Shown here: piece after piece, positions 828 to 22,358 of the stretch
Layout of the letters: the number at the start of each line of letters is the position of its first letter
Numbering within the stretch: position 1 is the first letter of the stretch
Source: Candidatus Gastranaerophilales bacterium
GTDB lineage: Bacteria; Cyanobacteriota; Vampirovibrionia; Gastranaerophilales; Gastranaerophilaceae
Direction: 5' to 3'
Length of the DNA stretch: 64,000 nucleotides
Assembly (NCBI GenBank): GCA_944323955.1
Contig: CALUUK010000003.1
Location: 62,001-126,000 of the forward strand
Notes under the pieces: model-generated
Database searches by the model: none
Told to the model about the DNA's origin: nothing
The model's input: the letters and a program-made list of their open reading frames with translations, nothing else
Translations under genes and position numbers: made by a program

Positions 828-3272
828 ATGTTTGAACGTTTTACGGAGAAGGCTATAAAAGTAATAATGCTTGCACAAGAAGAAGCAAGAAGACTGGGTC
901 ATAATTTTGTAGGTACGGAACAGGTATTACTGGGGTTAATAGGTGAAGGAACCGGAGTTGCCGCTAAAACATTGAAGGCAATGGGTGTTACTTTAAAAGA
1001 TGCCAGAGTAGAAGTTGAAAAAATTATAGGCAGAGGTTCGGGCTTCGTTGCGGTAGAAATTCCTTTTACGCCTAGAGCAAAAAGAGTTTTGGAACTATCC
1101 TGGGATGAAGCAAGACAACTCGGACATAATTATATCGGTACGGAACATCTTCTTTTGGGATTGATAAGAGAAGGTGAAGGTGTTGCGGCAAGAGTACTTG
1201 AAAATTTGGGTGTTGATCTTAATAAAGTAAGAAGCAATGTTATAAAAATGCTCGGCGAAACAAAGCCGGCGCAAACATCATCAACATCAAGCTCTTCATC
1301 AGGTAAAACAAAAACCCCGAGTCTTGATGAATTTGGTACAGACTTAACTTTGGCAGCACAGGAACAGCGTCTTGATCCTGTTGTTGGCAGAGAAAAAGAA
1401 ATAGAGCGCGTTATACAAATCCTAGCAAGAAGAACAAAAAATAATCCCGTTCTTCTAGGTGAACCGGGTGTAGGTAAAACGGCAGTTGTTGAAGGGCTTG
1501 CAGCAAGAATAATAAATTCGGAAGTTCCGGACATTTTAGACGGAAAGAAAGTCATTCAGCTTGATATGGGACTTTTGGTTGCGGGTACCAAATACCGCGG
1601 AGAATTTGAAGAACGTCTCAAAAAAATTATGGATGAAATAAGGCAGGCAGGTAATGTAATCCTGGTTATAGATGAAATGCATACCTTAATCGGTGCGGGT
1701 GCCGCAGAAGGGGCAATAGATGCTGCTAACATATTAAAGCCTGCTCTTTCAAGAGGAGAAATTCAGGTTATCGGTGCGACAACCTCGGATGAATACAGAA
1801 AATATGTTGAAAAAGATCCTGCTCTTGAAAGAAGATTCCAATCAATTCTTATTGAAGAGCCGTCTGTTGAAGATACAATTGAAATCATAAAAGGGTTAAA
1901 ACCCAAATATGAAGACCACCACAAACTTACTATTTCCGATGAAGCAATTGTAGCGGCAACAGAACTTTCTTATAAATATATTAACGACAGATTTTTGCCT
2001 GATAAAGCAATAGACATAATAGATGAAGCAGCTTCAAAATTAAGAATTCAAACAAGTGCTCTTCCTCCCGAAGGAAAAGAACTTGAAAAACAGCTTAAAG
2101 AAGTTATCAAGCAAAAAGAAGATGCCATAAGAAATCAGGAGTTTGAAACAGCATCAAACTTAAGAGATGATGAAGCGGATTTAAAAGAAAAAATTCGTGA
2201 AATGTCCTTAAAATGGCGCGAAGATAATGAAGATAATAAGCCGACGGTAACTGCGGAACAGGTTGCACAGGTTGTCAGTATGATGACCGGTATTCCTACA
2301 ACAAAAATAACCGAAGGCGAAAGTGAACGCCTGTTAAAATTGGAAGAGACTCTGCATAAAAGAGTTATCGGGCAGGAACAGGCCATCGTTGCTCTTTCAA
2401 AAGCAATAAGACGTGCAAGAGTCGGCTTAAAATCGCCCAACAGACCAATCGGAAGTTTTATCTTCTCGGGACCTACCGGTGTTGGTAAAACCGAGCTTGC
2501 TAAAGCACTTGCAGAAGCGGTATTCGGCAGTGAAGACAGCATGATTCGTATTGATATGTCAGAATTTATGGAAAAACATTCGACATCAAAATTAATCGGC
2601 TCACCTCCCGGATATGTAGGTTATGATGACGGCGGTCAATTGACCGAACTTATCAGAAAGAAACCCTATAGCGTTATTCTTTTTGACGAAATTGAAAAAG
2701 CACATCCGGATGTATTTAACATAATGCTTCAGATTTTAGATGACGGACGATTAACGGATTCAAAAGGAAGACATGTTAATTTCAAAAATACAATCATCAT
2801 TATGACAAGTAACGTCGGAGCAAGCATGATTACAACCACTAGCAAACTCGGTTTCTCAGTCGCTGATGATGAGCAGAAAGATAAATATGAAAAACTAAAA
2901 GACACTGTAATGGATGAAATGAAAAAAGCATTCCGTCCCGAATTTCTTAACAGAATTGACGATATCATTGTATTTGCGCACCTGTCTAAACCGGAAATCC
3001 GTCAGATTGTGGACTTAATGTTAAATGACTTATTTAAACGTTTAGAATCACAAAATCTGAATATTGAAGTAACGGAAGAAGTCAAAGATTTCCTCGGCGA
3101 AGCAGGATATTCGGAAGCATACGGTGCAAGACCTTTAAGAAGATTAATTCAAAAGAAAATCGAAGACGGTCTCGCAGAAGAAATTCTTTCGGGTAAATAT
3201 CAGCAAGGTGATAAAATCATACTTAAACTCAAAGATCAAAAAATCGTTTTTGAGAGCGAAAAAGCAGAATAA
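828..3272 (+). CDS. clpC: ATP-dependent Clp protease ATP-binding subunit ClpC
   Basis: An 814-residue Hsp100 unfoldase that feeds substrates to ClpP in the cytoplasm. Two Clp-N repeats fill about residues 1-145. AAA module 1 has Walker A GEPGVGKT near 211 and Walker B VIDE near 281. A UVR-type coiled middle domain ([20 protein letters not shown]) lies at about 427-460, which separates ClpC from ClpA and ClpB. AAA module 2 has GPTGVGKT near 548. The length is typical for ClpC of cyanobacteria and Firmicutes. An AGGAGA ribosome-binding site precedes the ATG and a strong terminator follows. No clpP or mcsAB genes are adjacent. Confidence 0.97.
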
Positions 3273-3275
3273 AAG

Positions 3276-3306
3276 AAAAAGCCTCCCATCAGGGGGCTTT
3301 TTTTTT
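3276..3306 (+). terminator. Intrinsic terminator of clpC
   Basis: AAGCCTCCC and AGGGGGCTT form an eight-pair stem (one G-T) around a short loop, followed by nine T. It lies four bases after the clpC stop codon. Confidence 0.9.
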
Positions 3307-3445
3307 CGCAAAAAACATGTTAGAATACAAGTATGAGAAAAATATTGTTGAACTGTTTATCATCTTATTCATCTGACACCTGAAGTGAGTGTTCTCGTTT
3401 TTAGTGTCAATTTAATTTTAAAGAATAAGAGTAAAGGCGGTTTTT

Positions 3446-3673
3446 ATGCATAGATTTTCATTGCATTTCTCGGTAATGTTTTTATTACTGGCAGTTTTGA
3501 TGCTGTTCGGTGTATTATACTTTAATATGCCGATGTTATTAAGCGGTAATAAATTAGTATGGTTCGTTTTATTGAATTCGTTGATGTTTGTCGGCGTCGG
3601 TATATTTTTTGTCGTATTCAAAGACAGAATTTTTCTTTACTTTGAAAATTACAGAAGAGAGAAACAAATTTAA
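3446..3673 (+). CDS. Small two-helix membrane protein, function unknown
   Basis: A 75-residue protein with two hydrophobic segments, at about 7-30 (FSVMFLLLAVLMLFGVLYF) and 38-60 (LVWFVLLNSLMFVGVGIFFV), and a basic tail ending RREKQI. This fits a small inner-membrane hairpin protein. A purine-rich AAAGGCGG sits ahead of the ATG. Its end overlaps the convergent lipA gene by four bases, which is common for real neighbours in compact genomes. I recognise no family. Confidence 0.6.
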   Translation: MHRFSLHFSVMFLLLAVLMLFGVLYFNMPMLLSGNKLVWFVLLNSLMFVGVGIFFVVFKDRIFLYFENYRREKQI

Positions 3674-9054: not shown

Positions 9055-9074
9055 ATTGGATGAATGCGAGACTT

Positions 9075-9156
9075 GTCGTAGTGGCGGAATCGGTATACGC
9101 GCACGTTTGAGGGGCGTGTGGAGAAATCCTTGGGGGTTCAAGTCCCCCCTACGACA
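9075..9156 (+). tRNA. tRNA-Leu (anticodon GAG), integration target of the island
   Basis: A class II tRNA with a long variable arm: acceptor GTCGTAG with CTACGAC, anticodon loop TTTGAGG with GAG, T-loop TTCAAGT, discriminator A. CCA is not encoded, unlike the tRNA-Glu and tRNA-Val genes in this window. The last six bases (ACGACA) belong to the proposed att core, so insertion rebuilt the tRNA end. The T arm and acceptor arm overlap the 3' end of the convergent recombinase gene. Confidence 0.93.
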
Positions 9157-10841
9157 TTTAACTTTTTAGAGCCTTTGTTAATAGGCTCTTTTTTAGTCTG
9201 TATTTGTTCTTTACGGGTTCCAAAGTCTATTATTTTGCTAAAATCTTCTGGGTAATTTTCACATGCTTGTTTTGCTTTTTCTGTACGACTTTCGAGGGTT
9301 CCAGTCAATGATTTTACATCTGCCGAAAAACTTTGTTTATTTTGCAATTTTCTTTGTCGCAATTGTTCAAATATCGGTTTTAATTTAACCTTTAATGTAT
9401 TTGTAGCTTCATCAAATAAAATTTCATCCGTAATCGTAGATAAAATAAGCCGTTTTTCATCCAATGTCGCTTTTAAATAAAGTTCTGGTATTCTATTGGC
9501 GAAATCAGCAAGTATATTCATCCGAGTCATTCTATCCTTTGAATTTTCACTTAAATTTTGAATTTGTTGACTTATAGAATCCTTCTCTGCTTGCCATTTA
9601 CGATGAATTTCATTAAAGGTATCATTATCAATAGTTAATTCCCCAGATAATTTTTTCTTAATACCATTGGAAATAGTATCTACAATCTTGCTATATTGTT
9701 TTTTAAGTTCTTCTAATGATTTATGTTCATAAGATTGTAAATCGCTAATCGCACTATAAATTTGATGTTTTACATTTTTTAGTTCAATATCTGAAATATT
9801 AAAACTGTCCAAAACTTCTTGCATTGCTTCATCTATTAAACATTCTCTAATATTAACTTCTTTTTTGTGCACCTTTTTATAATTCGAACAATGATAATAT
9901 ATGTATGTACCGCTATTATGACCGCCATGTTTAGTTGTACCAACCATAGTATAACCACATTTATCACATTTTATATAGTTAGAGTAAATATATGTTTCTC
10001 CTCTGGGCTTCTTATTGCTTGCACCATTAAACATTAATTGAACTCTATAGAATAATTCTTCTGATACTATTGGTTTATGCACTCCGTCATAAACTTTATC
10101 ACCATATGTAACTTTACCTGCATAAACAGCATTTTTAAGTATATCTTCTATTCTTTTTTTAGGGTATGGTTTACCTTTACCATCAACAAAACCATATTTT
10201 GCAAGCTCTTTTCCTAATTTTTCCATCGAAAAAGCACCCGTAGCATACATTTCAAAAATTCGTTTTATATAATATTCTTTATTTGGGTCTGGTACAATAA
10301 TGCCATGTTTATGCTCATCTCTAACATTTAAGTACCCTACAGGTGCTTTGCCTAATTTGTAACCCTTTTCTGCCCTATTTTTTATTACTGTTCTTGTTCT
10401 ATCTTTTGTGTTTTCAAGCTCATCTTCTGCTTGCCCGATATATACACCTAATAAAACTTTTTTAACTTTTCTTATGTCTTCAAAATTTTCCATAATACTT
10501 GCGATAGTACAATCATTGTTTTTTATAGGTTTCAAGATTTCACCAAAAAAATCTTCTTGACATCTTGATAGTCTATCCAACTTCCAGACAATTACACATT
10601 TAACTTTATTATGTTTTATGTATCGTAATAAATTTTTTAAGCCTTGCCTATTAGTATTAGCCCCCGTTTTTCCAGCATCTTCAAAATAAACAAAATTATA
10701 ATTTTTTGCTTTTGCCCATTTTTCGCACTCGTCTTTTTGCATATCCAAACTTAAGCCACTGCTTGCTTGTTCTGCGGAACTAACTCTTGTGTAAATTGCA
10801 ACTATTTCCTTTTTTATTTTGGCACTATGCAACTTGTTCAT
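9138..10841 (-). CDS. Large serine recombinase (integrase of the island)
   Basis: A 567-residue serine recombinase. The resolvase-type catalytic domain (1-150) has the nucleophile motif YTRVSS at 17-22 and the [11 protein letters not shown] helix. The Recombinase domain follows (about 165-275: [15 protein letters not shown] and [20 protein letters not shown]). A zinc ribbon begins at [11 protein letters not shown], and a coiled coil lies between about 350 and 460. This layout is that of phage-type integrases that act directionally between attP and attB. GGGAG precedes the ATG. The last codons lie inside the tRNA-Leu gene on the opposite strand, so insertion or excision would change the protein's C-terminus. 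Confidence 0.93.
9151..9160 (+). repeat. Left att core, ACGACATTTA, in tRNA-Leu 3' end
   Basis: Ten bases covering the last six tRNA bases and four more. It is repeated exactly, in the same orientation, at the proposed right end of the island. Confidence 0.65.
9168..9194 (+). terminator. Intrinsic terminator after tRNA-Leu, inside the recombinase gene
   Basis: AGAGCCT and AGGCTCT form a seven-pair stem over an eight-base loop, followed by T. It would stop tRNA-Leu transcripts 12 bases past the tRNA. It lies within the antisense of the recombinase 3' coding end, on the island side of the proposed crossover, so the island brings its own terminator for the target tRNA. Confidence 0.8.
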
Positions 10842-14625: not shown

Positions 14626-14660
14626 AAAAACGGGGGGCGGTATGTTTTACCGTTACCCCT
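14626..14660 (-). terminator. Intrinsic terminator of the resolvase gene
   Basis: Read on the minus strand, GGGGTAACGGTA, a short loop and TACCGCCCCCC are followed by GTTTTT. The left arm includes the stop codon of the resolvase gene. Confidence 0.75.
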
Positions 14661-15252
14661 TATAATTCTTTGCTAACTTATAGAATGATGTAGGCTTAAG
14701 ATTCATTTGTTTCATTGCTTCTCTTGCTGTAATACTGCCACTTTTCCATATAGGATATATTTCATGCCAGTTATCAGGATATTGTATTGGCGGTTTTCCT
14801 AATCTTTTTCCTTTTTCCTTTGCTAACTTTATTCCCTCTGCTTGTCTTTGCTTGATAAATGCTCTTTCTTGCTCTGCTACATAACTTAATAACTGTAAAA
14901 CTATATCACTTATTACTTCACCAATAAGCCCTTCTGTCCTTGTTGTATCAAGTACAGGCATGTCAATGACCTTAATATTTGCTTTTATATCCCTTGTAAT
15001 TTCTCTCCATTCATCGCAAATCTGCTTATAATTTCTTCCTAAACGGTCTATGGATTTGATTACAAGTATATCCCCCTCTCTTAACTGTAACTTTAATGCT
15101 TGATATTGCGGTCTTTCAAAATCCTTACCACTACATTTATCAATAAAAATATCTCTTTCATTGATACCTAATTCAAGCATAGCCTCTAATTGCCTATCCT
15201 CTTTTTGTTCTGTAGTAGATACCCTGCAATAGCCAAAAGTTTTAACAGTCAT
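14653..15252 (-). CDS. Small serine recombinase (resolvase/invertase family)
   Basis: A 199-residue enzyme with the catalytic motif YCRVST (nucleophile S12), IKSIDRLGRN near 65-75 and a C-terminal DNA-binding helix-turn-helix (IWKSGSITAREAMKQM then NLKPTSFYKL). It is the size of Tn3 resolvases and DNA invertases, so it is distinct from the large integrase of the island. A pair of matched inverted-repeat sites lies just upstream, where Tn3-type res sites are found. It may resolve element multimers or invert a segment; no obvious invertible promoter was seen. Confidence 0.9.
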   Translation of the reverse strand: MTVKTFGYCRVSTTEQKEDRQLEAMLELGINERDIFIDKCSGKDFERPQYQALKLQLREGDILVIKSIDRLGRNYKQICDEWREITRDIKANIKVIDMPVLDTTRTEGLIGEVISDIVLQLLSYVAEQERAFIKQRQAEGIKLAKEKGKRLGKPPIQYPDNWHEIYPIWKSGSITAREAMKQMNLKPTSFYKLAKNYKG

Positions 15253-15326
15253 AATATTCTCCTAAATTTTGTACTCTATACTAATATTATGACTCTACTA
15301 TTCGCATAAGTCAATATTGTATGTGA

Positions 15327-15409
15327 ATATTCGTAAAATATATTTACATACATTTACGAATATAAAATAAGACAAATTTTTTGACTTCGTAAAGGTACAC
15401 TTTTACGAA
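15327..15409. promoter_or_regulatory. res-like repeat region upstream of the resolvase
   Basis: Two dyads share the same half-site. Site I is ATATTCGTAAA (15327-15337) with TTTACGAATAT (15353-15363); site II is TTCGTAAA (15386-15393) with TTTACGAA (15402-15409). Their centres are 52-53 bases apart, about five helical turns. Position and layout fit a recombination or autoregulation site for the adjacent recombinase. Single half-sites also occur near 12564 and 18480. Confidence 0.55.
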
Positions 15410-15426
15410 TACATTACAATAATTAC

Positions 15427-15597
15427 TTATTTATTTCTTAAATCCTCTGCGGTATACCATCTACCACATTGTATACAATAATAATCACCTGTTCCCATGC
15501 CTAAAAGATGCTCTTGTTTTTTATGTGTACAATCGCATGGTTTATCGCCCCATTCTTTTCTTAATCTTTCTGCATATTCTGCATCTGATTCTCTCAT
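15427..15597 (-). CDS. 56-residue zinc-ribbon protein downstream of the ABC-3C operon
   Basis: A short gene encoding a start MRESDAEYAERLRKEWGD, then C21-D-C23 with H25 and a second pair C41-I-Q-C44, a plausible zinc-binding knuckle pair. It has the best ribosome-binding site of the operon (AAGGAG, five bases from the ATG), which overlaps the stop codon of the ABC ATPase gene, with 12 bases between the genes. That makes co-translation with the ATPase very likely. It could be an accessory or regulatory part of the system, or an unrelated cargo gene. Confidence 0.68.
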   Translation of the reverse strand: MRESDAEYAERLRKEWGDKPCDCTHKKQEHLLGMGTGDYYCIQCGRWYTAEDLRNK

Positions 15598-15609
15598 AAA
15601 ATCTCCTTT

Positions 15610-17403
15610 TTATAATCTAAAACCAAAAAGCCCACCGTCTTCTGTATCTTCTAATTTTAAACGAACACATTTATTGAATCTATTTTTAAATTCCTTACTG
15701 AATAATTTTTCTGGTACTCTATCAGAGTTCATAAAACAAATATATTCAGTATTTAATTCTTTTGCAGAATTATCGGCATATTCTAATGCTTTTGCAATTT
15801 GCCTTTCATCAACGGAGTCAAATACATCACTATCATGTATTAAAAATCCAGGTAGATTGTTATTTTGATTTCGTATAGTCATAATAGTCATATCATAATC
15901 AAATACTTTCATTGCAGTTCTACCCGTACTTTTATCTTTACCAATAAAAGCATTATATTTATATCCATTATCATCAAAATCAATTGAAAGTCCGATTTTA
16001 TCGATTTTATCTTTTTCTGCATATAAAAAATCTGCGATTTCAGCAAATGTTTTAATTGCGATTGTCCGTTGTTCTTCTCGTTCATCAAGGTCTTGCTTTG
16101 CTTTGCTTAATAATTCTAATGTTTGTTTTTTATTCTCTGTTAAATCAGATTCCATTTTCTTAATATTTTCGATATGTTTTTCAATTTCATTTAATTGTGC
16201 TCTCAATTCAGCATTACGATTTTGTAGTTTATTAAATTCATCAATAGCATTATGAGTTTTTAATATTTTCATTTTTTCAGCACGTTTATCAAGGAAAGTC
16301 TTTAAATAATGGTCATTCTTTTCTATTTCATCATTTAATCGCTTTATTTCATCATTTAAATATTCTTTTCTGTTTTGAATAACAGTAGAATGAAAAGCAA
16401 CAACTTCTTCCAATGATTTAGTTACATTATCTGGGAATGTTAGACCAGCCTCATCATATATCAATTTAATAGTGCTTATATCTGAATCTTTTTCTTCTAA
16501 ATTATCTTTTTCATATTTTTCAAGTAAACTTTTTTGAACTGTTACTGTTTCTGATAATTTGTGTATTTGTTTGGTTAATTGATTCGCTTCTTGTTGAATA
16601 TCCTCATAGTGTGGATGAACTTTAAATTCTGCCAATTCATTATCATATCTATTAACTTTGTTTTGCAAGACTACTTTTTCAGATTCTAATTCCCCAAGAG
16701 TACCAGTATAATTTTTAAAATATCCATTTTTTGTGGCATTTTTTAATTTGATTATCATTTCTTTTTCATCTTTTAGATTTTGCATTGTTATAGCATATTC
16801 CCAATTAAGATTTAATAAATATGCATTGTATATTTGTGATTGCCATGCTTTTTGATTTTTAAAATATTTAAATGGGTCTAAAAAGGCACCTTCATTATAT
16901 CTTATAAAATAAGGTATAAGACTTCTGTATTTTGGATAATATTTTTCTGTAGAATTATTGTCTATCTTAAAAATGTAAATCCCTAAAAAATCTTTCCAAT
17001 CATCCTCTTTCATATAATATTTATAAATTGTTGCTACGACAGAATCAGATTTAATCTCAATGGGTTTTATATCCCACTTTGAGAATTCTCCATCTATAAA
17101 ATATACTTTTGTACTATTTGCAACATTCCTGTATATTGTGTGTATCTTGCCATATATTTCAAGTTCAATAGCATATGTCCAATTTCCTATTAACGAGGAA
17201 TCTAATGTTTTAATAGAACCACCCAAACAAAAATCTATAATTTCAATTAAAGAAGTTTTACCTGCTCCATTTCTTGAATTTTTATTATTTTTTTGTTTTA
17301 AATCGGATGCCACATCAGCAAGTATAACATTTAACCCTTTATGAAATGTTATATTTTTTACAATTTCATTGTTTTCATTTATTAATTTTACTGCTTTAAT
17401 CAT
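15610..17403 (-). CDS. ABC-three-component ATPase, DUF2326 (YydD-like) type
   Basis: A 597-residue SMC/Rad50-like ABC ATPase with no membrane part. The N-terminal ATPase half has Walker A RNGAGKTSL with K49. The middle third is coiled coil (about 215-460, rich in Glu, Lys and Leu). The C-terminal half holds the Walker B-like GFLIHDSDVFDSVDE near 515. This split layout is that of DUF2326 proteins, which act as the ATPase of ABC-3C conflict systems. GAGGG precedes the ATG and the gene overlaps the middle component by eight bases. In this family the ATPase is thought to sense invading nucleic acid or a nucleoprotein and to license the effector; this is inference from the family. Confidence 0.85.
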   Translation of the reverse strand: MIKAVKLINENNEIVKNITFHKGLNVILADVASDLKQKNNKNSRNGAGKTSLIEIIDFCLGGSIKTLDSSLIGNWTYAIELEIYGKIHTIYRNVANSTKVYFIDGEFSKWDIKPIEIKSDSVVATIYKYYMKEDDWKDFLGIYIFKIDNNSTEKYYPKYRSLIPYFIRYNEGAFLDPFKYFKNQKAWQSQIYNAYLLNLNWEYAITMQNLKDEKEMIIKLKNATKNGYFKNYTGTLGELESEKVVLQNKVNRYDNELAEFKVHPHYEDIQQEANQLTKQIHKLSETVTVQKSLLEKYEKDNLEEKDSDISTIKLIYDEAGLTFPDNVTKSLEEVVAFHSTVIQNRKEYLNDEIKRLNDEIEKNDHYLKTFLDKRAEKMKILKTHNAIDEFNKLQNRNAELRAQLNEIEKHIENIKKMESDLTENKKQTLELLSKAKQDLDEREEQRTIAIKTFAEIADFLYAEKDKIDKIGLSIDFDDNGYKYNAFIGKDKSTGRTAMKVFDYDMTIMTIRNQNNNLPGFLIHDSDVFDSVDERQIAKALEYADNSAKELNTEYICFMNSDRVPEKLFSKEFKNRFNKCVRLKLEDTEDGGLFGFRL

Positions 17404-17626
17404 TTTTTACCCTCATGATTAAACCTTTATCAAATTTTATCAAATTAAACATATACAAGAAATCCAATGTTAAAACAAATTTTTCAAAACTTGTAATTTC
17501 TTTATATTTTTTCAGTTTATTCCATAATGCTGATACAGACTGTGGATAGGTCAATCTTGGTAAAATCAATGCACCTACACCAATTATAGAATATGAAAGT
17601 TTTATTGTTTTGTTAGGCTTTATCAT
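17396..17626 (-). CDS. ABC-3C middle component
   Basis: A 76-residue protein (start MIKPNKTIKLSYSIIGVGA; features LPRLTYPQSVSALWNKLK and SFEKFVLTLDFLYMFNLI). Size, position between effector and ATPase, and the pattern of a conserved N-terminal strand, a WNKLK helix and an FVLTLDFLYMFNLI helix fit the small middle components of ABC-3C systems. It overlaps the upstream gene by four bases (ATGA) and the ATPase by eight, so all three are translated together. It probably bridges the ATPase and effector. The exact subfamily cannot be fixed by eye. Confidence 0.75.
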   Translation of the reverse strand: MIKPNKTIKLSYSIIGVGALILPRLTYPQSVSALWNKLKKYKEITSFEKFVLTLDFLYMFNLIKFDKGLIMRVKND

Positions 17627-18396
17627 TTCTCAAATATATCACACTCCAAAAAGAAATAAGATACAACCGATAAAGCGGCCGCACTTACAATATTTGTATC
17701 ATAGTTAGATTTTGCAAAATCCCATAAACTTGTAAAAATATCATCACCAGATAAATTTTGTTTTTTTAATTCTAAATACTTATTAATAAAAGCATTTCTT
17801 AAATTCTGCTCAAAAGAAATATTTATATTTGTAATTTGATTTATATAATTTCTAATCAAATTGGAATTTGCTAACCCCATTGTTATACATTGTGCAGTAC
17901 CTAATGACAATGAATTTTTATCTATTTTTTCTTGTGGTGTTATTATTCTATAATCTTCACTTGGATTATTTTGCTCATTTGGATTTGTAATACATTTGAT
18001 TATAATATCCAACTCTGCACATGTAACTTTATCTACCGAAGCCTCTAAATCATTTATGGCATTTTTTATATGCTCTGCTTTTAATTCTTTTAATTTTTCT
18101 ACCGTATAAGTTTTTTCATCATTATCAATAATTGTATGACATGTTGGGCAAACAAAAATTAAATTATCATAACTTTGTCTTTCCTCATCGGTTAAATCTT
18201 TCCCATCTTCATACCTTGCAGCTCCAGGCTTTTCACCACAAATATGAGCCATTTCTCCAATGTTAAAAACAGAATTATCATCATTTCGTATATACAATTT
18301 CTTTTTACAAATAGCACATTGACCACCTGAAAGTTGTATTAAAACTTTCATATCTCTATTTTTGATATCTAATTTTGGTGATTCACTCTTTGTCAT
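17623..18396 (-). CDS. HNH nuclease effector with ABC-3C C-terminal domain
   Basis: A 257-residue protein. The N-terminal HNH domain has two zinc CXXC knuckles (C27/C30 and C83/C86), the metal-site histidine H51 in GEMAHICGEKPGAAR, N78 and H87 in FVCPTCHTIID. The C-terminal part (about 150-257, TAQCITMGLANSNLIRNYIN) has no nuclease motif and is probably the docking domain of ABC-3C effectors. It is first in the operon. The likely role is DNA cutting once the ATPase is triggered, giving interference or abortive infection; this is inferred, not shown. Confidence 0.78.
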   Translation of the reverse strand: MTKSESPKLDIKNRDMKVLIQLSGGQCAICKKKLYIRNDDNSVFNIGEMAHICGEKPGAARYEDGKDLTDEERQSYDNLIFVCPTCHTIIDNDEKTYTVEKLKELKAEHIKNAINDLEASVDKVTCAELDIIIKCITNPNEQNNPSEDYRIITPQEKIDKNSLSLGTAQCITMGLANSNLIRNYINQITNINISFEQNLRNAFINKYLELKKQNLSGDDIFTSLWDFAKSNYDTNIVSAAALSVVSYFFLECDIFEK

Positions 18397-18543: not shown

Positions 18544-19539
18544 ATGAATAATGAAAGAACGCCTATTGAAAAAATTAAAGCATACCATTCTACAAAAGGT
18601 TACTTATCGAAAAGTAATCAACTTCTCTTACAGACTATGATGGGAATTACAGAAGAAGATTTAAAAAGACTTTCAGGATTAGATATAGAAACCGAATTCA
18701 TATTAACCTTGTACATGTTGGATATTTGTAATGAAATTATCGGATTTGAAGAAGGTATTGCCCGTTTAACAAAGGTAGCATGTCCTGATTTATACATAGA
18801 ATTAAAAGATGGGAAAAAATTATTTATTGAAATAAAAGAAAACAATATAAATCTCACAAAGACTGGATTAGAAAAAATGAATAATTTTGCAAAAAAATTT
18901 CAAGCTGAATTTTATGTAGCAGTAAAACAAAATGGATTATGGGCATTATATGATTATGAATATCTGCATAATAGAAATCCAAAAAAAATTAACTGGAACG
19001 ATGATTATAAAAATTCATTATTCAATGAGCTATTTGAAAACATAACATATTTTTTGCCAAATAATCTACTTTTTGAGTGTATCTATGATAAGGATTTAAA
19101 TTTAGAAACCGCTTCTCACTATGCAAATTGTGGTTGTTTAGAAAAATTAATAATAAAATACAATGATAATGTAATTTTAGAGACACAAAATCGAGATGAA
19201 GCCGAATTTATATGTTTTAATTTAGAAGCAATTATAACAGAATCCTCTAAACTCTTGCATCAGGAAAAAAATATTTCTGAAAGCAATAAAACAATTGTAC
19301 AAGATAAAATTTATCTAAAAAACTATGATGGAATATATATAAATCTATATAATTTTTTATTAGAACCTGTTGTCCATACATTAAAATCTAACAAAGAAAA
19401 GTATGATTTTACTTCATTCTTGCAAAACCAGTATGCAAGAAAAGATAATATAGCGAAAATGAGAAAAAATATTATTTCATGTTTAAGTCTTCTACAAAAA
19501 GTAGGTTATCCAATAATAAAAGTAAAATTCAATAATTAA
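18544..19539 (+). CDS. Predicted PD-(D/E)XK nuclease next to the ABC-3C operon
   Basis: A 331-residue protein. Residues 71-98 match the restriction-nuclease core: P81-D82 on a strand (ACPDLYIELKDG), a turn, then FIEIKE with E96 and K98, giving PD-X13-EXK. A helix before it (ETEFILTLYML) supplies a candidate acidic residue E51. The rest is helical with no second motif I can name. It is divergent from the ABC-3C operon across 147 bases, has an AGGAGA site, and is the last gene before the right att site. It may be part of the same defence cassette or a separate defence gene. Confidence 0.65.
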   Translation: MNNERTPIEKIKAYHSTKGYLSKSNQLLLQTMMGITEEDLKRLSGLDIETEFILTLYMLDICNEIIGFEEGIARLTKVACPDLYIELKDGKKLFIEIKENNINLTKTGLEKMNNFAKKFQAEFYVAVKQNGLWALYDYEYLHNRNPKKINWNDDYKNSLFNELFENITYFLPNNLLFECIYDKDLNLETASHYANCGCLEKLIIKYNDNVILETQNRDEAEFICFNLEAIITESSKLLHQEKNISESNKTIVQDKIYLKNYDGIYINLYNFLLEPVVHTLKSNKEKYDFTSFLQNQYARKDNIAKMRKNIISCLSLLQKVGYPIIKVKFNN

Positions 19540-21791: not shown

Positions 21792-22358
21792 ATGACTACT
21801 AAAAAAATAACTAATCGCTGTTTTTGGGTTAATATGAAAAACCCGGTTTATATTAAATACCATGACACGGAATGGGGTGTTGCGGAACATTCTGATAAAA
21901 AGTTATTTGAAATGCTTATTTTAGAATGTTTTCAAGCAGGTTTAAGCTGGGAATGTATCTTAAACAAAAGAGAAAATTTCAGAAAAGCCTTTGACAATTT
22001 TGACATAGAAAAAATAAACAAATATGACGAAACAAAACTCAATCAGTTATTGGAAAATCCCGATATAATAAGAAACAAACTTAAAATAAAAGCTGCAATA
22101 ACAAACAGTATTATATTTAAACAAATTCAAAAAGAATTCGGATCTTTTGATAAATACATTTGGGGCTTTACGAAAGGAAAAGTAATATTTGAAAGCTGTG
22201 ATATAAGAACAACCTCACCTTTATCCGACGAAATTTCAAAAGACCTCAAAAAACGCGGAATGAAATTTATGGGTTCAACAACTGTTTATGCCTATTTACA
22301 GTCTATCGGAATCATAAACGCACACACAAAAACCTGCGATTGTTATAAAGATAATTAA
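21792..22358 (+). CDS. tag: DNA-3-methyladenine glycosylase I
   Basis: A 188-residue Tag-type glycosylase that removes 3-methyladenine from DNA. The zinc site residues are visible: RCFW and YHDTEWG at the start and HTKTCDC at the end, matching Cys4, His17, His175 and Cys179 of E. coli Tag. ILECFQAGLSWECILNKREN is the helix-hairpin-helix entry of the family. I use the ATG that follows GTG-TTT; a GTG two codons earlier is also open. The 3' end overlaps the convergent transporter gene by four bases. Confidence 0.94.
   Translation: MTTKKITNRCFWVNMKNPVYIKYHDTEWGVAEHSDKKLFEMLILECFQAGLSWECILNKRENFRKAFDNFDIEKINKYDETKLNQLLENPDIIRNKLKIKAAITNSIIFKQIQKEFGSFDKYIWGFTKGKVIFESCDIRTTSPLSDEISKDLKKRGMKFMGSTTVYAYLQSIGIINAHTKTCDCYKDN

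Follow-up and report, generated by a model that had tools for sequence, protein, structure and literature searches.

A small zinc-ribbon gene behind the ABC-3C operon of a Gastranaerophilales bacterium probably belongs to a mobile accessory family

The ABC-3C systems, which are grouped with Lamassu, combine an effector, a small middle component and an SMC-like ATPase (PMC10586767, PMC12409362). In the PADLOC type PDC-M68 (ABC-3C, Lamassu-like) these are an HNH nuclease with a CTD10 domain, middle component 6 (MC6) and a DUF2326 ATPase, and the same trio is found in the window, the 64,000-nucleotide stretch of contig CALUUK010000003.1 (Candidatus Gastranaerophilales bacterium) that was analysed here. 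The composition of ABC-3C as described (PMC10586767) includes no ribbon protein; among the loci compared here, a fourth cistron specifying a small predicted zinc ribbon is present only in the window. Two other groups invite comparison. Phage moron loci are typically single genes which lie antisense to lytic genes and have their own promoter (PMC7067206, PMC6814406). The small C(P)xCG zinc-finger proteins HVO_0758 and HVO_2753 of Haloferax share with the family described below a length of less than 70 amino acids and the CxxCG knuckle, but the family differs from them in its first pair (C-x-H, or C-x-C in the window), a conserved N-terminal helix and an LGxxTGD hairpin. An HVO_2753-like chain showed marginal profile similarity to the family (E ~0.1).

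The small gene is a 56-codon open reading frame with an ATG start, running from 15597 to 15427 on the minus strand, and its product is MRESDAEYAERLRKEWGDKPCDCTHKKQEHLLGMGTGDYYCIQCGRWYTAEDLRNK. The features at and around it are as follows.

9074..9157 (+), tRNA-Leu(GAG), probable attachment site
9138..10841 (-), large serine recombinase, 567 aa, running into the 3' end of tRNA-Leu(GAG)
14653..15252 (-), serine resolvase/invertase, 199 aa, the next gene downstream of the small gene
15253..15426 (no strand), repeat-rich gap of 174 bases with several inverted repeats, putative resolvase res site or operator
15427..15597 (-), small putative zinc-ribbon gene, 56 aa (homology, motif, predicted fold, dN/dS of the family)
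15603..15608 (-), AAGGAG ribosome-binding site, 5-base spacer to the ATG
15610..17403 (-), ABC-3C ATPase, DUF2326, PADLOC PDC-M68B, 597 aa (DUF2326 6.3e-31; PDC-M68B 6.7e-162)
17396..17626 (-), ABC-3C middle component 6, MC6 (2.6e-17)
17623..18396 (-), HNH nuclease with CTD10, ABC-3C effector, PDC-M68A (CTD10 2.5e-8; PDC-M68A 4.7e-65)

The genes for the HNH protein, MC6 and the ATPase overlap their neighbours within the trio, and an effector with a CTD domain, a middle component and an ABC/SMC-like ATPase stand in one operon; judged by their domains, the three genes upstream of the small gene are a complete ABC-3C system. The ATPase aligns with its relatives to its last residues, and the small gene is therefore not a fragment of it. 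A search for the window ATPase in the phage collection and in viral contigs did not find it. Beside the operon, at 18544-19539, lies the gene for a divergent 331-aa protein with similarity to Hjc/HsdR-N-like nucleases.

The original prediction had pointed to an easily missed short frame with four cysteines and a nearby histidine, preceded by an AAGGAG site and a 12-base gap. The frame is there, with Cys at 21, 23, 41 and 44 and His at 25, and both the site and the gap (15598-15609) are borne out by the sequence. The ATPase stop codon had been placed inside the ribosome-binding site; it is in fact a TAA at 15612-15610, directly upstream of the AAGGAG. Because the gap is short, the ribosome-binding site strong and no terminator separates the two genes, the small gene is probably transcribed on the same mRNA as the ABC-3C operon of the window genome, as its last cistron, and the protein is probably translated there. 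No intrinsic terminator was found in 15253-15426, 3' of the small gene. The inverted repeats of this region include TTCGTAAA/TTTACGAA and AATATTATGACT, are situated ahead of the resolvase gene, and likely represent a res site or an operator.

The small gene occurs once in its own 1.96 Mb genome, on a 199-kb contig, and sits in a low-G+C mobile island beside tRNA-Leu, 174 bases before the serine resolvase. The G+C content is 25-30% at 10-20 kb of the window, versus approximately 34% around it. The large serine recombinase is the probable island integrase. A 64% identical recombinase is located at the same tRNA-Leu in genome G006 with other cargo. In the relative genome G038, a transporter gene whose window counterpart lies at 22355 comes straight after tRNA-Leu, and everything from 9158 to ~22350 of the window, which exceeds the low-G+C part, is missing; the site looks unoccupied. 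The G038 tRNA-Leu(GAG) gene encodes its CCA, and the window copy does not.

Homologues with 40-55% identity to the small protein were identified on Xanthomonas plasmids, in a Gordonia phage (Fenry gp31), on a Streptomyces plasmid, in an Omnitrophota genome, on small enterobacterial plasmids, on about 20 phage contigs and in five genomes of the bacterium's own family. A tblastn search of 7.3 Gb of plasmid DNA led to a 57-codon frame, left unannotated on Xanthomonas plasmids, that is 54% identical over residues 9-45 (E=4e-6). The Omnitrophota homologue (51% identity) came from a single-protein search of genome contigs, which gave one locus. In IMG/VR the ribbon motif pattern is present on 21 contigs, and on 20 of these a reading frame agrees with it; viral searches with either the single window protein or the single Omnitrophota protein as query gave no match. 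Within the bacterium's own family of genomes the gene is carried by 6 of 383, the other carriers related to the window genome being G299, G217, G260, G358 and G823. A few of these relatives, e.g. L033/L041 in a region that we read as lambdoid and nin-like, have CPxCG in place of C-x-H and are more distant. We found the family under no name: no Pfam or NCBIfam model fits the small protein, the PADLOC scan gave nothing usable, and its members are often left unannotated. The best PHROG match to the window protein (0.0017) does not cover it convincingly, nor do PHROG 2945, 28897 and 26608, entries of unknown function which are weakly matched by several family members (best E ~1e-6).

The family profile, which itself includes the window copy, scores that copy at 5.6e-22. 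Close pairs within the family, to which this measure is limited since the window copy has no close relative, give dN/dS of ~0.1 (L050/L051, 0.04/0.35; Xanthomonas/L027, 0.10/1.19; L031/L038, 0.06/0.52), and the family is under purifying selection. With relatives, profile match and family dN/dS in agreement, the prediction of a real small gene holds: on sequence evidence, 15427-15597 is a genuine gene. On L031 and L038 the family member has directly 3' of it (3478-3636) another small zinc-ribbon gene, of a different kind (MKRAGAVCPNCGSTSKPAKEKMMGQDTQDLICVDCDH...).

The consensus of the family is MQ..A..L...WG..PC-x-H-P....EKEYxLGxxTGDxxCxxCG, and start, helix and ribbon all align across it. The window copy has the predicted N-terminal helix and the motif PC-x-[H/C] ... 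E-x2-LG-x2-TG[DE]-x2-C-x2-CG by which membership was defined. Two groups of metal ligands had been proposed, C21/C23/H25 and C41/C44. The second stands; the first has to be revised, as the conserved first pair consists of C21 and position 23, the latter being Cys in the window copy and His in nearly all relatives, while H25 occupies a variable position of the alignment. With C23 where the relatives have His, the likely ligands are C21, C23, C41 and C44, a pattern from which we infer one zinc per protein; not all small proteins of the C(P)xCG kind bind zinc (PMC11241148). The AlphaFold2 model (16 alignment rows; mean pLDDT 86.5) places a helix at 5-16 and strands at 26-31, 34-41 and 47-49, and this predicted helix, beta-hairpin and strand are what is expected of a one-zinc ribbon, in keeping with the original assignment. 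Its best structural match in BFVD is an 80-residue phage protein [TM 0.71, 38% identity], the same length as Fenry gp31; compared with the PDB, no structure reached Z 2. The top profile matches, to C2H2 fingers and adenylate kinase lids, were rejected as mere knuckle resemblance. A decaying copy on L012 (1734-1889) has lost the first metal-ligand pair.

The small gene had also been proposed as a fourth ABC-3C subunit, an inhibitor of the nuclease or a regulator, and a search beside other ABC-3C ATPases was named beforehand as the refuting test. For this test we assembled 19 further loci of this ABC-3C type, 1 from the bacterium's own phylum, 15 from plasmids and 3 from Omnitrophota (the last covering only 1.1-1.5 kb of downstream DNA), with ATPases 26-40% identical to that of the window. 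The gene is absent from all 19, the family profile giving a best E of 0.3 against their six-frame translations. Conversely, when every ORF of the family loci was compared by blastp with the window ABC-3C proteins, only the ABC-3C control locus L053 matched, and no ABC-3C ATPase was detected in the six family-carrying genomes searched. The link seen in the window is not a general one, and the small gene appears not to be a constant fourth member of the ABC-3C system. It is still conceivable, if unlikely, that it is a dedicated fourth component of the window's own ABC-3C lineage, in which the ribbon would dock on the ATPase or the HNH protein and restrain or target the nuclease. The tight 12-base spacing on the same strand, the strong ribosome-binding site and the lack of an intervening terminator would equally be expected of a dedicated subunit, and the change of the family His to Cys could reflect a new role; moreover, the sample of ABC-3C loci is limited, the nearest ATPase in it being only ~40% identical, so that a lineage-specific role is possible. 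Its absence from the same-type loci, and the existence of the family without ABC-3C in phages, plasmids and the tested genomes, speak against such a component. We hold equally little for a combined reading, in which the phylum-crossing mobile ribbon would act on a conserved host machine (e.g. RNA polymerase, the ribosome or a shared defence trigger) and would here have been co-opted as an extra regulator of the ABC-3C nuclease.

Two rhizobial ABC-3C operons (L054 4262-5059, L055 4265-5062) carry a gene of the TIGR02391 family directly 3' of the ATPase, which indicates that different extra genes can trail this type of operon. On three plasmids (L105, L106 and L060) serine recombinase genes are found upstream of same-type ABC-3C operons, a parallel to the resolvase near the window operon.

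Many copies of the family have integrases, resolvases, tRNA attachment sites, phage terminases or integron-like sites in their vicinity. In two relatives of the window genome (L050, L051) the gene is at the distal end of an island with different cargo, whose large serine recombinase abuts tRNA-Glu; in L050 the family gene is the last before the next chromosomal-looking gene. In two further relatives, L049 and L052, it lies between tRNA-Pro and the same transporter gene, the L052 copy (3182-3367) being in decay and without the hairpin turn. It adjoins tRNA-Met in the phage contig L034, where it stands between terminators, and in L019; it is antisense to terminase-like genes on the phage contigs L026 and L042; and in L003 a recombinase lies ~400 bases away. 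On either side of the Xanthomonas copy (L002 5850-6250, L003 1270-1640) there is attC-like DNA of the form TAACAA...CAAGCCGAACTGG..CCAGTCGGCTT...TTTAGGC, then GCCTAACAATTCGTTCAAGCCGA, with a single-strand fold z of -3.6, which suggests a former integron gene cassette.

Such surroundings, with the window resolvase 174 bases away across a repeat-rich gap and L003, L050, L051, L030 and L034 close to a recombinase, a tRNA attachment site or an integrase-like gene, might point to an accessory factor or recombination directionality factor belonging to the resolvase or island recombination module. This we consider slightly less probable still, as the recombinases fall into unrelated types (small serine resolvase, large serine recombinase, tyrosine-type-like) whereas the ribbon forms a single family, other copies are neighbours of terminase, lysis genes or replicons and have no recombinase immediately adjacent, and accessory genes gather at the edges of such elements anyway. 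That the frame is spurious or decayed and has no product is very improbable, for although a decayed relative exists in L052 and the conserved His is lost in the window copy, the frame is intact, its ribosome-binding site is strong, Cys occupies all four metal positions, and it strongly matches a family under selection.

We therefore favour, with a probability of about 0.7, the reading that the small gene is an accessory, 'moron-like' cargo gene of a mobile zinc-ribbon family which landed behind the ABC-3C operon. Its product would stand alone as a member of an unnamed family of proteins of approximately 50-65 residues, presumably one-zinc ribbons, which spreads on phages, on plasmids, on integrative islands and on one or more integron-like cassettes; in the window genome the gene would have become the last ABC-3C cistron within the tRNA-Leu mobile island. 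The likeness to phage morons is that many copies are single, some with a terminator of their own, and lie antisense to terminase or at the ends of elements. The window copy differs in that it trails an operon; a terminator-like hairpin within 95 bases past the stop is found at about one third of 26 copies, several relatives thus having a terminator of their own, but not at the window copy.

As predicted, the protein would consist of an N-terminal helix and a beta-hairpin stabilised by zinc. The conserved E-x2-LG-x2-TGD face of the hairpin probably binds a target that most bacteria possess. The breadth of the family across phyla, together with its tight conservation, suggests such a conserved host target, which might be nucleic acid or the machinery of transcription or of translation; its binding would presumably benefit the mobile element.

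The analysis sets right an attractive association with a defence system and brings to light a family of small proteins under strong selection on the phages and plasmids of very distant bacteria. Its copies on small enterobacterial plasmids make the family testable in laboratory E. coli.
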